The notes below the pieces were generated by a model. It was not told where the DNA came from, did not search any database, and saw only the letters and a list, made by a program, of their open reading frames with translations. Positions 50,472 to 58,502 of a stretch of DNA of 62,329 nt are shown piece by piece (the stretch's first letter is position 1; every line of letters begins with the position of its first letter). Source of the DNA: an uncultured Flavobacteriales bacterium (lineage in GTDB: Bacteria; Bacteroidota; Bacteroidia; Flavobacteriales_D; Crocinitomicaceae); assembly GCA_913056215.1 (NCBI GenBank), contig CAJXMN010000008.1, forward strand, positions 1 through 62,329, written 5' to 3'. Made by a program: the position numbers and the translations under genes.

Positions 50472-50750
50472 ACAAATGTAAGTGATTTCTGTTGTGTTTA
50501 ACGTTGCCTGCACAGAAGTGCATCAACTCGTTTTTAATTACAGGTGAATCAATGGCTCATCTAAAAAAATAAAATGCTGAGAACCTGTGATTTTCTTATG
50601 CGTTGCGACTTATAATTGAAGGTTATGGCCAAGCTTTTTGAGTAAAAATACTCCCTGACTATTACTCCGAACTCATCTTCACTGATGCACATCGGCTTCA
50701 GTAACCTCAAGGAATCACTGCCCGATGCATCGCGATGAATAACAAAAAGT

Positions 50751-50984
50751 TTCTATCACGAATTTAGTGGGCACAAAAGCATTCAAAACTTCCCCTGAGC
50801 GACTTTTTGTCACGGTTTTTTCCTTCGACATTTTTTTATAAAAGCTCAGGATCCACAAAAACGCGCGCCAAAAAGTATTGCGTCAACATCTTCTATCGCC
50901 ACGGGTTGAAACCCTTGGCGATAGAACCCGTGGCGATAGAACCCGTGACAATAGAACGCGTGGCAATAGAACGCGTGGCAATAG
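50751..50984 (+). mobile_element. Degenerate MITE-like element, copy A
   Basis: Positions 50775-50924 align over about 150 bp with 55685-55837, including GTCACGGTTTTT, AAAGCTCAGGATC, GCGCCAAAAAGTATTG and a hairpin whose arms begin CTATCGCCACGGGTT. At 50751-50773 the sequence TTCTATCACGAATTTAGTGG and onward matches the left inverted repeat of copy B at 18 of 23 positions. No right inverted repeat was found, so the copy is decayed or truncated on that side. Its 3' end is expanded into a 15-bp tandem repeat. An open frame across it (50807-51073) is a by-product of the repeat. Confidence 0.75.
50910..50984 (+). repeat. Five-unit 15-bp minisatellite derived from a hairpin arm
   Basis: Five consecutive 15-bp units begin with AACCCTTGGCGATAG and AACCCGTGGCGATAG and drift to AACGCGTGGCAATAG (two identical copies). 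The unit is the 3' arm of the hairpin at 50893-50924, repeated head to tail. This suggests replication slippage at the hairpin. Units lack spacers, so this is not a CRISPR array. The flanks, 50472-50750 and 50985-51327, show no genes. Confidence 0.9.
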
Positions 50985-51327
50985 AACCAACAAAAAAAAG
51001 ACCCGCACTTTGGCGAGCCTTCAAATCACATTACCAATTTTTCGTACTTTGGACAATTCGAAAAAATTGCTAATGTAGTTGCGCTATTTTGAGTGACAAA
51101 TATAATAAAGTTCCACCAACGTGAGCTACTGAACTCATTCTAAATAACACTCAAACAAGTCATTAGGCAACCAATCTTACAACAAGTGTTATAATCTAAA
51201 TCCCTCAACCCGCATGTATTTCGAATCGAAAAACCGACTTAAAACACGCTTAGCTTTTCAATAATAAACTAGTTATTTTTTGTAACGAGGCAACCATTTA
51301 TACAAATCGCTGATTTTCAGTATTTTT

Positions 51328-54710: not shown

Positions 54711-55430
54711 TTATGCTATATTCGTGAACACTTGTTGGATATCATCATCGTCTTCGATTTTGTCGAGTAGCTTTTCGACCTCCTCCATTTGATCCTCGCT
54801 CAATTCAATGGGTGAAGTAGCGAAGCGCTTCAGGTTCGATTTAGCGACCGCTATCTTTTTTTCTTCGAGCGCTTCCTGCAAGGAGCCAAAGCTGGTGTAA
54901 TCGCCATAAATAATGATTGTACCGTCTTCCTCTTGTTCAATTTCTTGAAGTCCAGCATCAATCAGTTCCAGCTCTAGCGATTCAATATCCAGTTCTTCGG
55001 TGTTCTCTGGTGCTATTTCAAACACGGCCTTGCGATCAAACATGAACTCAAATGAGCCATTGGGGACCACTTGCCCTCCTGCTTTGTTGAAATACGATTT
55101 CACATTGGCAACTGTTCTGGTGGGGTTGTCTGTGGCGCATTCGACGTAAATCAATGCCCCGTGCGGTCCTTTGCCTTCGTAATTGACGAGTTCATAATTT
55201 TCGACGTCTTTCGATGTGGCTCGTTTGATGGCTTTCTCGATGTTGTCTTTCGGTACGTTTTGCGATTTGGCATTTTGAATTGCCGTTCGCAGTGTCGCGT
55301 TCATTGCCGGATCATCGCCTCCTTCCTTGGCGGCCATGGTAATAGCCTTCAACAACTTCGGAAAGACTTTCGACATCTTGCTCCACCGTTTTTCTTTCGC
55401 TGTTCTCCTTGCCTCAAATGCTCTACCCAT
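54711..55430 (-). CDS. YebC/PmpR family protein
   Basis: The 239-residue three-domain protein starts [20 protein letters not shown] with [35 protein letters not shown] and [36 protein letters not shown] and [14 protein letters not shown] follow. The family was described as DNA-binding regulators, and more recent work links members to relief of ribosome stalling at proline runs. The sequence cannot decide between these. Its upstream 75 bp is repeated at 56087-56160. Confidence 0.93.
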
Positions 55431-55451: not shown

Positions 55452-55525
55452 AAAACGACCTCGGTTTTTCCTGGTAAATATACAAATTAGCCCGAAAAAT
55501 CATTGATTTTATAATTGAACGCATG
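55452..55525. repeat. Direct repeat R1 (yebC upstream region)
   Basis: AAAACGACCTCGGTTTTTCC and the following bases to 55490 match R2 (56087-56125) at 36 of 39 positions. Weaker similarity continues for about 30 bp, ending GAACGC in both. R1 is immediately upstream of yebC and R2 immediately downstream of an intact membrane-protein gene. This pattern fits a local tandem duplication. Confidence 0.8.
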
Positions 55526-55641: not shown

Positions 55642-55914
55642 AGCGAGAGGGTTCTACCACCAAATTAATGGGTAAGTACAGGATAAAAGCATTTAAAATA
55701 TCACTTAAGCGGCTTTTTGTCACGGTTTTTGTTCTACGACATTTTTTAATTTAAAAGCTCAGGATCAACAAAAACACGCGCCAAAAAGTATTGCTCCATA
55801 ACCTTCTATCGCCACGGGTTGAAACCCGCGGCGATAGACACCATAATTTTACTTTCCTATATGAAGTTGTTCGTTTTATACTACCCATTAAATTGGTGGT
55901 AGAACCAGCGAGAG
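55642..55914. mobile_element. MITE-like element, copy B, with target duplication
   Basis: The element is 55650-55906 (257 bp). Left end 55650-55674 begins GGTTCTACCACCAAATTAAT, and right end 55882-55906 is its inverted complement at 24 of 25 positions. The 8-bp sequence AGCGAGAG is directly repeated outside both ends (55642-55649 and 55907-55914), the mark of transposition. The interior has no coding capacity. It has the conserved core and a 15-bp-arm hairpin at 55806-55837 with one mismatch. An 8-bp duplication fits the IS1595 family among others, but the ends do not match the nearby IS. It needs a transposase supplied elsewhere. Confidence 0.85.
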
Positions 55915-56086: not shown

Positions 56087-56160
56087 AAAACGACCTCAGT
56101 TTTTCCTGGTAAACATACAAACTAGGTACGAAATGATCGGTTTTTATCACTGAACGCCAA
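56087..56160. repeat. Direct repeat R2
   Basis: This is the second copy of the yebC upstream region (see R1), lying between the stop of the membrane-protein gene and its truncated duplicate. It no longer precedes any intact gene. Confidence 0.8.
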
Positions 56161-56172
56161 AGGGCAAGTGCG

Positions 56173-57364
56173 TTAAAACAAGAAAACAACCCCAAAAGCT
56201 ATTAAAAAAAAACTTATCGGGATCGACAAAGTAATAAGTGCAGCCCACCAATATCTTTTCTTTTTGTCCTCCTCGGTCATTGCTTTACGTTCAAATAGTT
56301 TTAAGCCCAGAAATGAGGCAAAGTAAAGAACTCCCAGTCCACCAATTATAAGAACCAGCGTACCAAGTAGTTCAGATGAGTTACACGATATAGTACAGGA
56401 AAGATAGCCAATTAACCCCAATGCTGCACCAGTACAGATTATCAGGATAAACATGGACGCTATAATATAAACAGGGTCGTGCACCATCTCGCCTGGACTG
56501 TTGGCAGAAGCGTCCAGCAACCCATTCACCCAGGACCACTGGGAAAAGTCAAACCCATTGCTCAGCATTCCCCCCAGAGAGAAAAAGCCAAAACTTGTTG
56601 AGGCATTCAACACCCCGAACAGCCCGAGTTTTTTCCTGTTGGTCAATTTTCCGTTTCGCTTCCAGTGTTCTGAAGTAAATATACTCACAGTGATAAGGCC
56701 AAGAGAAAGGAGCAGTAGCGGCAAGGAAAAAGGAGCACCCAGCAACAAACCAAGGCCCGTTGACGATGCGGCGAGCACTATCTTTGCAGCAACCAGCAAG
56801 ACCCTGGACTTTGATTTATTGCGCGCTGCCCAGCGCTGCACTTTGTTGGGTCTGTTCTTGCTGAAAAAGAAGGGAAAAAGCAGCAAAAGAAAAAAGTAAG
56901 CACCATTCATTTGCCAACCTTTACGCGATTGTTCAACGTTTTTTATCGACGTTTCTCCTGTTGTATTCGATACTGGTGTAGATGGATCATACGCGCCATT
57001 GATATCCTTTGTGTTTTGAGGACTTTCCTGAGGATTACCCGCTTTTCTTATTGAACGAATCGCCACCAGTTCGCGCTCAACTTTGGGTAATTTTATTTGT
57101 TTCGACTTACGAATAGTAACGTTGTTCCTGTTTTTCAAATACGATGCTGATGGGTCATTGCTTATTACATCACGCTTTTGAATCTCCATGTCTCTCTCTG
57201 CTGCTACTCCATCGTAAAAAAACACTTTGCTTTTTATGAAAATGCCAACCTTTGCGGTGTTTTCGCTTTTCGAACAACCCTCGCGAATTCGTGCTGCACG
57301 ACTCTGAGAAGATGAACAAGAGCAGCAGTGTAAAAAGAGTGTATGTGGTTTTTGGGTGTTTCAT
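56173..57364 (-). pseudogene. Lipoprotein/multi-pass membrane protein split by a one-base frameshift
   Basis: Two overlapping frames make one protein. The first (57364-57170) starts MKHPKTTYTLFTLLLLFIFS with ESC (lipid-anchor Cys23) and LFEKRKHRKGWHF, a short basic motif found after the Cys in a Bacteroidota envelope protein family. The second (56173 up to at least 57225) continues GVAAERDMEIQKRDV and ends with about six or seven membrane helices. They are joined by removing one base from the A7 run at 57216-57222 (T7 on the coding strand). The repaired length is about 396 residues. This may be an assembly error, a null mutation or slippage. Function is unknown. Confidence 0.72.
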
Positions 57365-57449: not shown

Positions 57450-58502
57450 AATGCCTATCGGGTACTTTACCAGTAGAACGTAATTACTTTACGTAATGAG
57501 ACATGATCTTTGTACAAAAATAGCAGTATGAAGTTAATAGATTTTTCTAAACATTACCCAGATGAGGCCAGCTGTAAAGCAGAGTTTAAGTTGTATCGCG
57601 AGAGTCAAGGAGTCGTTTGTAAGAAATGTACGGCCAAAGATCAATACTGGTGGCTTGACTCTAAAGAGCAATATGAGTGTAAAAAATGTGGGTGCAGAAT
57701 GAGTTTAAAGTCTGGAACAGTTATGGAAAACTCAAAGTTACCTTACCAGTTTTGGTTTATAGCATTTCATTTGATGACATCTACAAAAAAGACGATTTCC
57801 GCATTTGAACTTCAACGTCAAATAGGTCTCCGATATTATGAACCAATTTGGGCAATGATGCATAAAATCAGGTTAGTGATGAGTAAAAGAGACGATCTTT
57901 ATGAATTAACAGCAGATGTTGAGACCGATGAATCGTATTATTCAACACGTTACATACAAGAGGAGGATGAATTTACAGGTCAGAAAGAAAAGCTGAAAAA
58001 AGGTAAGGGATCCCAGAGAAAAACAAGTGTTTTAGTAATGGCTAGTCAGCAACGAAAGATGCATTCAAAACTAACCAAAAAAAGAGGGGCAAGTTACTCA
58101 CAACCAAAACATTTAAAAATGAAGGTTGTTGAAAATGGAACCTCCTCTGAAATTAAAAGTACAGCTCAAAAAAATATAGATGAAGAAGTGTCTGTAAAGT
58201 CTGATAAAGCAAAGGCATATCCAAAAGCTTTTAAGAACTTTAAAAAACTTGAAATGTTCGACATGTCAACGTTCGATCCTGGTAAAATATTACCATGGAG
58301 TAGCAATGCTATTACCAACTCTAAGAATTTGATAAAAGCCATGCATCATGGAGTTGAAGAGAAGTATTTACAGAATTATCTTAATGAGTTTTGCTATAAA
58401 TACAATAGAAGATATTTTGGTGACAAAGTCTTTAAAAGGCTCCTAATATGCGCTGTAACCCCGGTTTGGTTTTAAATGCTGGTAAAGTATCCGATATTCA
58501 TT
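57450..58502 (+). mobile_element. IS1595-like insertion sequence
   Basis: It is a 1053-bp element. Imperfect 24-bp inverted ends lie at 57450-57473 and 58479-58502, both with CTGGTAAAGTA on the inner side and CATT at the outer edge, matching at about 21 of 24 positions. The single transposase fills most of the interior. Outside the ends AAAGCTAT (left) and AAAGTTAA (right) share 6 of 8 bases and may be a decayed 8-bp target duplication. It sits between the split membrane-protein gene and the surface-protein operon. Confidence 0.75.
57528..58475 (+). CDS. IS1595 family (ISXO2-like) transposase
   Basis: The 315-residue protein uses the ATG at 57528 (MKLIDFSKHYPDEASCKAEF). The N-terminal zinc ribbon is CKKC (about 30-33) with CKKCGC (about 50-55). 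DDE-type catalytic acids are seen in DVETDESYYSTRY and VKSDKAKAYPKAF. The C-terminal block ITNSKNLIKAMHHGVEEKYL and QNYLNEFCYKYNRRYFGDK matches the family's third catalytic region and tail. The frame is intact and of normal length, so it may be active. It shows no obvious composition contrast with its neighbours. Confidence 0.9.
   Translation: MKLIDFSKHYPDEASCKAEFKLYRESQGVVCKKCTAKDQYWWLDSKEQYECKKCGCRMSLKSGTVMENSKLPYQFWFIAFHLMTSTKKTISAFELQRQIGLRYYEPIWAMMHKIRLVMSKRDDLYELTADVETDESYYSTRYIQEEDEFTGQKEKLKKGKGSQRKTSVLVMASQQRKMHSKLTKKRGASYSQPKHLKMKVVENGTSSEIKSTAQKNIDEEVSVKSDKAKAYPKAFKNFKKLEMFDMSTFDPGKILPWSSNAITNSKNLIKAMHHGVEEKYLQNYLNEFCYKYNRRYFGDKVFKRLLICAVTPVWF

Follow-up and report, generated by a model that had tools for sequence, protein, structure and literature searches.

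ISL3 MITEs are an already known kind of element, since a 187-nt, ISL3-associated example with 8-nt direct repeats has been published for Microcystis aeruginosa PCC 7806; its ends match ISL3-family elements of the same genome, GGCTCTTCG (PMC11448079). Two further systems bear comparison: the REP/BIME repeats with their RAYT (TnpA-REP) transposases, for which a subclass, 2.6, has been described that is dominated by Bacteroidetes and shows "atypical secondary structures" (PMC6006769), and the Acido-Lenti-1 RNA (RF01687).

The element considered here is 257 bp long and lies in a window of 62,329 nucleotides, which is the whole stretch of DNA that was analysed and forms contig C8 of a 3.2-Mb draft assembly, in 192 contigs, of the host genome, which belongs to the Brumimicrobium group. 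This element and the Microcystis MITE are both short, lack a transposase, have ISL3-type ends and 8-nt repeats and possess stem-loop potential. The window element differs in its ends, GGTTCTAC...TTTARTGG, in the phylum of its host, in a host genome where no cognate transposase was found and in an interior that is an independently dispersed two-hairpin repeat. With autonomous ISL3 elements of Bacteroidota, it shares the terminal layout and, in one case, the 8-bp duplication; in contrast to these elements, which are 1260-1283 bp long and contain a transposase, it carries two left-type ends. The interior resembles REP/BIME sequences in being intergenic, multi-copy and palindromic; unlike these, it is built from two hairpins that are coupled and contain a fixed mismatch, and it rides in a DDE-type element. 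With a probability of roughly 0.93, the 257-bp element would be a MITE moved by ISL3-family transposition, the interior of which is a cargo that exists independently. In the open-licence PMC literature, as represented largely by titles and the beginnings of abstracts, neither these ends nor the interior module were found to be described.

The element and its copies in the host genome

The element (Table 1) is intergenic, located between a minus-strand ORF (54711-55430) that we take to be yebC from reading its protein and an uncharacterised, membrane-like ORF, also on the minus strand (56173-57225). The yebC neighbour is present in nine of nine genus relatives, whereas the intergenic DNA flanking the element is not conserved in them, finding matches of chance size only, and no empty site was found there. 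The intergenic region is bracketed by a 71-bp direct repeat (55452-55522 and 56087-56157; 81% identical, 635 bp apart). Further along, an IS1595-family (ISXO2-like) ORF at 57510-58475 has no obvious target duplication, as judged by eye.

Table 1. Coordinates in the window of the two insertions and of their parts.
Feature	Position	Strand	Remarks
Non-autonomous element, probably ISL3-type (MITE), copy 1	55650..55906	.	257 bp
Left terminal inverted repeat, copy 1	55650..55674	+	25 bp
Right terminal inverted repeat, copy 1	55882..55906	-	24/25 complementary to left
Left target duplication, copy 1	55642..55649	.	8 bp, AGCGAGAG
Right target duplication, copy 1	55907..55914	.	8 bp, AGCGAGAG, exact
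Two-hairpin module (putative cargo), copy 1	55711..55849	-	model R1, 97.3 bits; copy in training set
Hairpin 1 of module	55805..55838	-	hairpin noted earlier with 15-bp arms
Hairpin 2 of module	55713..55788	-	arms 55713-55730 / 55771-55788; G.A mismatch and G.U pair both conserved
Probable second insertion of this family, diverged, copy 2	50749..50988	.	240 bp
Left target duplication, copy 2	50741..50748	.	AACAAAAA, A-rich
Right target duplication, copy 2	50989..50996	.	AACAAAAA, A-rich
Two-hairpin module, copy 2	50801..50936	-	model R1, 90.1 bits; copy in training set
Tandem ~15-bp half-hairpin units replacing right inverted repeat, copy 2	50926..50988	.	read from sequence

The original prediction, a non-autonomous element transposed with an 8-bp target duplication, was built on 25-bp inverted ends with a single mismatch, the same octamer directly outside both ends and an absence of coding capacity, and it further noted an interior hairpin. 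All of this stands: the ends and octamers are as listed in Table 1, all ORFs of at least 80 aa in the ORF list lie outside the 257 bp, and the hairpin is present, its arms measuring 16 nt at 94%. The inverted pair exceeds chance; the window holds a single 25-bp pair with at most one mismatch and a spacing of 60-700 bp, and 50 single-base shuffles of the window, which served as the control, hold no such pair.

A search for additional copies with conserved ends, as had been proposed, finds them in the host genome and elsewhere. A second full-length copy, 95% identical to the window element, is located at C40:18074-18330; the last base of this copy is altered, and its flanks, CATTACGA and CATTACAA, agree in seven of eight positions. 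The transposition had been thought to be recent, a qualification that is dropped because the two full copies are ~5% apart and the cognate transposase was not found at the thresholds given below.

A core of ~150 bp had also been reported to be shared with a second locus. This core is real (50775-50925, 86% identity), but it is not specific to the 257-bp element; the locus probably belongs to a third member of this family inserted in the host genome, copy 2 of the window. This copy starts with GTTTCTATCACGAATTTAGTGGG and finishes with ...ATAGAACC; its left end is recognisable, whereas its right end is rebuilt from tandem units in which one hairpin-1 arm recurs. The right-hand octamer is the only exact copy within ~430 bp downstream. 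Of the three insertions, this is the weakest case, since its octamer is A-rich and only ~8 bases of the right end are left. The octamer duplications at the three places in the host genome thus agree in 8/8 (window element), 7/8 (C40) and 8/8 (A-rich, copy 2) positions. Two additional single ends are found on C42 (L012) and C54 (L089), and no convincing partner end was seen for either. Tandem arrays with a period of 15-16 bp, made of one arm of the CCACGGGTTGAAACCCGTGG hairpin, occur at 50926-50988 and at positions 1501-1630 of another locus (L009).

Assignment to the ISL3 family

The mobilising transposase had been considered not identifiable. It can, however, be placed in the ISL3 family, because autonomous ISL3 elements in other Bacteroidota carry the same ends. 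These relatives were located by TBLASTN with ISL3 proteins, as transposases directly inside the same kind of ends. The best-defined one, L272 (JAFEAI010000006.1, 4590-5863), is 1274 bp long, has ends matching in 19 of 22 positions and is flanked by an 8/8 duplication, GATCAGTT; its frame stays open as far as a stop located within the right inverted repeat, and its protein shares ~61% identity, over the full length, with the L207 and L232 proteins. Ends of this kind also bound the other three, L207 (1260 bp), L232 (1283 bp) and L281 from Algoriphagus antarcticus (1272 bp), and the transposases of all four comprise ~395-400 aa. A duplication is demonstrable in L272 only, one of the four copies: the flanks of L232 and L281 agree in 3/8 and 1/8 positions, and L207 lacks a left flank at its contig end. 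The domain DDE_Tnp_ISL3 (PF01610) is matched by seven of seven proteins or fragments tested (L232, L207, L222, L234, L142, L272, L281), with E-values of 1.7e-68 for L272 and of 1.7e-67, 2.7e-65 and 1.4e-61 for L207, L232 and L281, respectively. In Lishizhenia, of the same family as the host, the same end is followed by an ISL3 frame that shares 72% identity with L232 across 121 aa and is then interrupted by stops (L070).

Within each of the four autonomous elements, the left and right ends match in 16-19 of 22 positions. The ends of the window element agree with the left ends of the four in 19-21 of 22 positions and with their right ends in 16-18. Both ends are thus closer to the left ends of the parents, and the window element is therefore not a simple internal deletion; beyond the terminal repeats, its interior has no similarity to the autonomous elements that is visible by eye.

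With the L232 protein as query and E <= 1e-60, a cognate ISL3 gene was found in none of ten genus genomes (the host and nine relatives), and a sample of the order yielded a match in one of 299 genomes (G021), at 35% identity and with different ends. The host does have ISL3 genes of its own, on C43 and as a piece on C14; these fall into a 330-aa group that has GGATCA...-type ends and are ruled out as the partner on that account. The mobilising family is thus clear, and its gene is absent, or unassembled, in the host. An ISL3-derived MITE need not share its genome with the cognate transposase, whose presence bears on current mobility. The element looks stranded, since the matching transposase was not found in the genome as assembled, and it was probably left so after loss of its partner.

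The most likely course of mobilisation is the following: an ISL3 DDE transposase acting in trans, either formerly resident or arriving on incoming DNA, would recognise the ~22-25 bp ends, GGTTCTAC....TTTARTGG. The element would be cut out or copied, by a presumed cut-and-paste or copy route, and its insertion at an 8-bp staggered cut would leave 8 bp duplicated; the partner transposase would later have been lost. The ends, the duplications and the autonomous relatives, all of which are observed, form the basis for this mechanism, and from them we infer that an ISL3 enzyme acts on these ends.

Ends and duplications beyond the host

When up to three mismatches are allowed, 17 of the 200 family genomes contain the end pattern, and that of Brumimicrobium glaciale (G002), a genus relative of the host, has 21 occurrences. 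A contig scan with GGTTCTACCAYNAWTTTARTGG returned at least 118 stretches; among the matches listed, most titles are of Bacteroidota, some of Chlorobiota and Balneolaceae, and single MAGs are titled Proteobacteria, Gracilibacteria and Anaerolineaceae.

All DNA fetched contains 60 distinct inverted end pairs. Their flanks match in 8/8 positions at 38 and in 7/8 at six, compared with 0.43 and 0.14 expected by offset flanks, and fall below 7/8 at the remaining 16. Small elements with inverted ends and matching octamers number 48 (158-525 bp), 40 with octamers identical in 8/8 and eight in 7/8 positions; they form 24 clusters by shared 8-mers, so that some are near copies of each other. One of the 48, a 525-bp element of B. 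glaciale (L134, 1873-2397), has related ends, GGTTCTATATGA...GTGGGTA, and an exact CAAATTAT duplication. Similar ends are seen in another ISL3 group (L140, contig end GGCTCTATATGAATAAGTGTGGGTA). A set of short Bacteroidota elements, 158-525 bp long among those examined, is thereby assigned to a transposase family, and the ends together with the 8-bp duplication provide a search handle for annotating them.

Other candidate movers

Two other enzymes could be held responsible for the movement of the element. The nearest is the IS1595-family transposase encoded 1.6 kb away at 57510-58475: an ISXO2-like transposase domain is recognised in its product (PF12762, E 1e-16), and the IS1595 family also makes 8-bp duplications. 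However, the putative ends around this ORF, GGGTACTTTACCAG and GGATACTTTACCAG (by eye), do not match those of the element, which ISL3 elements, unlike the IS1595 neighbour, carry directly. With its different ends, the neighbouring transposase is ruled out as the partner, and mobilisation by it is highly improbable. Equally slight is the chance that the whole 257 bp represents a REP/BIME-type repeat moved by a Y1 (RAYT/IS200-like) transposase, the outer repeats and octamers being incidental. The interior is indeed palindromic and repeated, Y1 transposases are present in 12 of 12 genomes examined, and weak matches resembling hairpin 1 adjoin some Y1 genes (L046, L052, L304, L307); in addition, the one-ended element on C42 (L012) contains a palindrome, 72 bp of which are 89% identical to palindromic DNA that adjoins one of the host's Y1 genes (L046). 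Against this, Y1 enzymes are not known to make a target duplication, whereas duplications at this element family are far above chance. Moreover, the full interior module lies beside none of 38 Y1 loci, a survey that covers part of the Y1 genes listed; the best score there is 30.8 bits, as opposed to 37.9-97.3 bits for 50 module matches. RAYT was ruled out as the mover of the module on the same survey.

The L046 locus, on C34, has palindromic repeats on either side of its Y1 (IS200-like) transposase gene.

The interior module

The interior of the element is best read on the minus strand, in the order hairpin 1, linker, hairpin 2. A covariance model, R1, was built from 17 genus sequences and comprises 104 positions and 27 pairs. 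At E <= 0.01, it has 62 matches in six of ten genus genomes, training copies included; matches were also obtained in 17 of 150 family genomes at 1e-5, with up to 22 per genome, and, at 1e-6, in 20 of 399 order genomes, 19 from Crocinitomicaceae, which we take to be the family of the host, and one from another family. A few of the R1 matches are mirror hits of the palindrome on the opposite strand.

Among 50 aligned module matches (47 distinct), 92.3% of the cells pair and both sides change in 17 of the 27 pairs. The covariation score is 0.387, in comparison to 0.150 for shuffled alignments (0 of 500 reach the observed score) and at most 0.124 for slid structures, in an alignment that was fitted to the R1 model and leans towards it. 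In hairpin 2, the G.A mismatch is kept in 47 of the 48 rows with letters there, and the G.U pair in 43 of 48. Rfam 15 has no match in the window at gathering score. When 14 related loci were compared with Rfam at E <= 1, two sub-threshold matches were obtained, both to the Acido-Lenti-1 RNA: two loci of G007, L031 and L033, score 34.2 and 24.1 bits around the hairpin-1 region, but both scores are below the gathering value of 37 and hairpin 2 is uncovered. Strongly covarying and, in the window, unmatched by Rfam, the cargo module is a candidate new structured element.

In other Crocinitomicaceae genomes, the module occurs without the ends of the window element. In the test used, none of 80 further module copies is enclosed by ISL3-type ends within 400 bp, and the module is therefore independent of the element. 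The interior of such an element can thus be an independent, structurally conserved repeat, element and cargo having separate histories.

Relative to shuffled sequences (30 shuffles each), folding is stronger in the interiors of the 48 small elements, where the median z is -4.4 and 35 of 48 lie below -3, than in neighbouring flanks, where the median is -0.85 and seven of 47 lie below -3; several interiors, for example the L184/L213/L225/L249 copies and L189, do not have this excess. In B. glaciale, the element interiors contain palindromes other than the Brumimicrobium module, as seen by eye, and R1 has no match in that genome at E <= 0.01. These results, together with the palindrome in L012, suggest that the palindromic repeats inside ISL3-type shells differ from host to host.

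Orientation and possible role of the module

The position of the module relative to genes was examined in two sets, with ORFs called mechanically rather than taken from annotation. The first set consists of 43 copies (the 50 module matches minus seven secondary or duplicate ones), 42 of them intergenic; with the flanking genes read along the module, 25 are ++, 11 +-, five -- and one -+, one copy being without a neighbour. The second set consists of 80 further copies drawn from the R1 genus and family matches, as a part of these, and includes five that failed a crude letter check and were retained; 79 are intergenic, and the 77 with both neighbours divide into 39 ++, 13 --, 12 +- and 13 -+. The strand bias with the neighbouring genes, ++ versus --, is 25:5 in the first and 39:13 in the second set (P 4e-4 for the latter, by a statistic that ignores the relatedness of copies). 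While this bias did repeat, the excess downstream of genes in the first set, where 36 of 42 copies have a co-directional upstream gene, did not, and a pure 3'-UTR reading was rejected for this reason.

What the folded strand might do can be weighed in two ways. The module may be a REP-like single-strand DNA element, the folded strand with its fixed G.A mismatch being recognised by an HUH/Y1 or other putative enzyme. The near-invariant mismatch inside a covarying stem points in this direction, as do the intergenic position of 121 of the 123 copies in both sets (by the mechanical ORF caller), the number of up to 22 matches per genome and the Bacteroidetes-dominated TnpA-REP subclass with atypical structures (PMC6006769). 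The Y1 survey, in which no locus is flanked by the full module, argues against it, and neither unit boundaries nor insertion sites are defined; on balance, the odds of this reading are about even. Alternatively, the module may be an RNA element that is kept in transcripts, for example as a processing, stabilising or partial termination structure. The covariation and the high proportion of paired cells favour an RNA, as do the strand bias in both sets and the finding that the strand co-directional with the genes has G.U, not A.C. However, the second set has no excess 3' of genes, with 12 convergent and 13 divergent copies, a U-run after hairpin 2 is absent (by eye), and the window has no Rfam match; copy number and scatter resemble those of a mobile repeat, and replication direction could underlie the strand bias. 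An RNA element is hence possible, with the odds leaning against it. As a tentative synthesis that we hold at somewhat less than even odds, the interior may be an undescribed, largely Crocinitomicaceae-specific two-hairpin element, a candidate for single-stranded RNA or DNA activity on one strand, with a near-invariant G.A and a conserved G.U in a covarying stem. ISL3-type MITE shells would repeatedly have taken up such palindromic repeats, different ones per host, and would have acted as vehicles for their spreading.

The module also varies in form and setting. In L025, L031, L032, L033 and the window elements, hairpin 2 takes a long form that includes an additional arm (TCCTGAGC...GTCGAAGGA), which is absent in other copies. 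The module copies at L014 (1470-1660), L029 and L032 lie inside a different inverted repeat (GCAAACGCATTTAAA...), as seen by eye, perhaps a second kind of shell.
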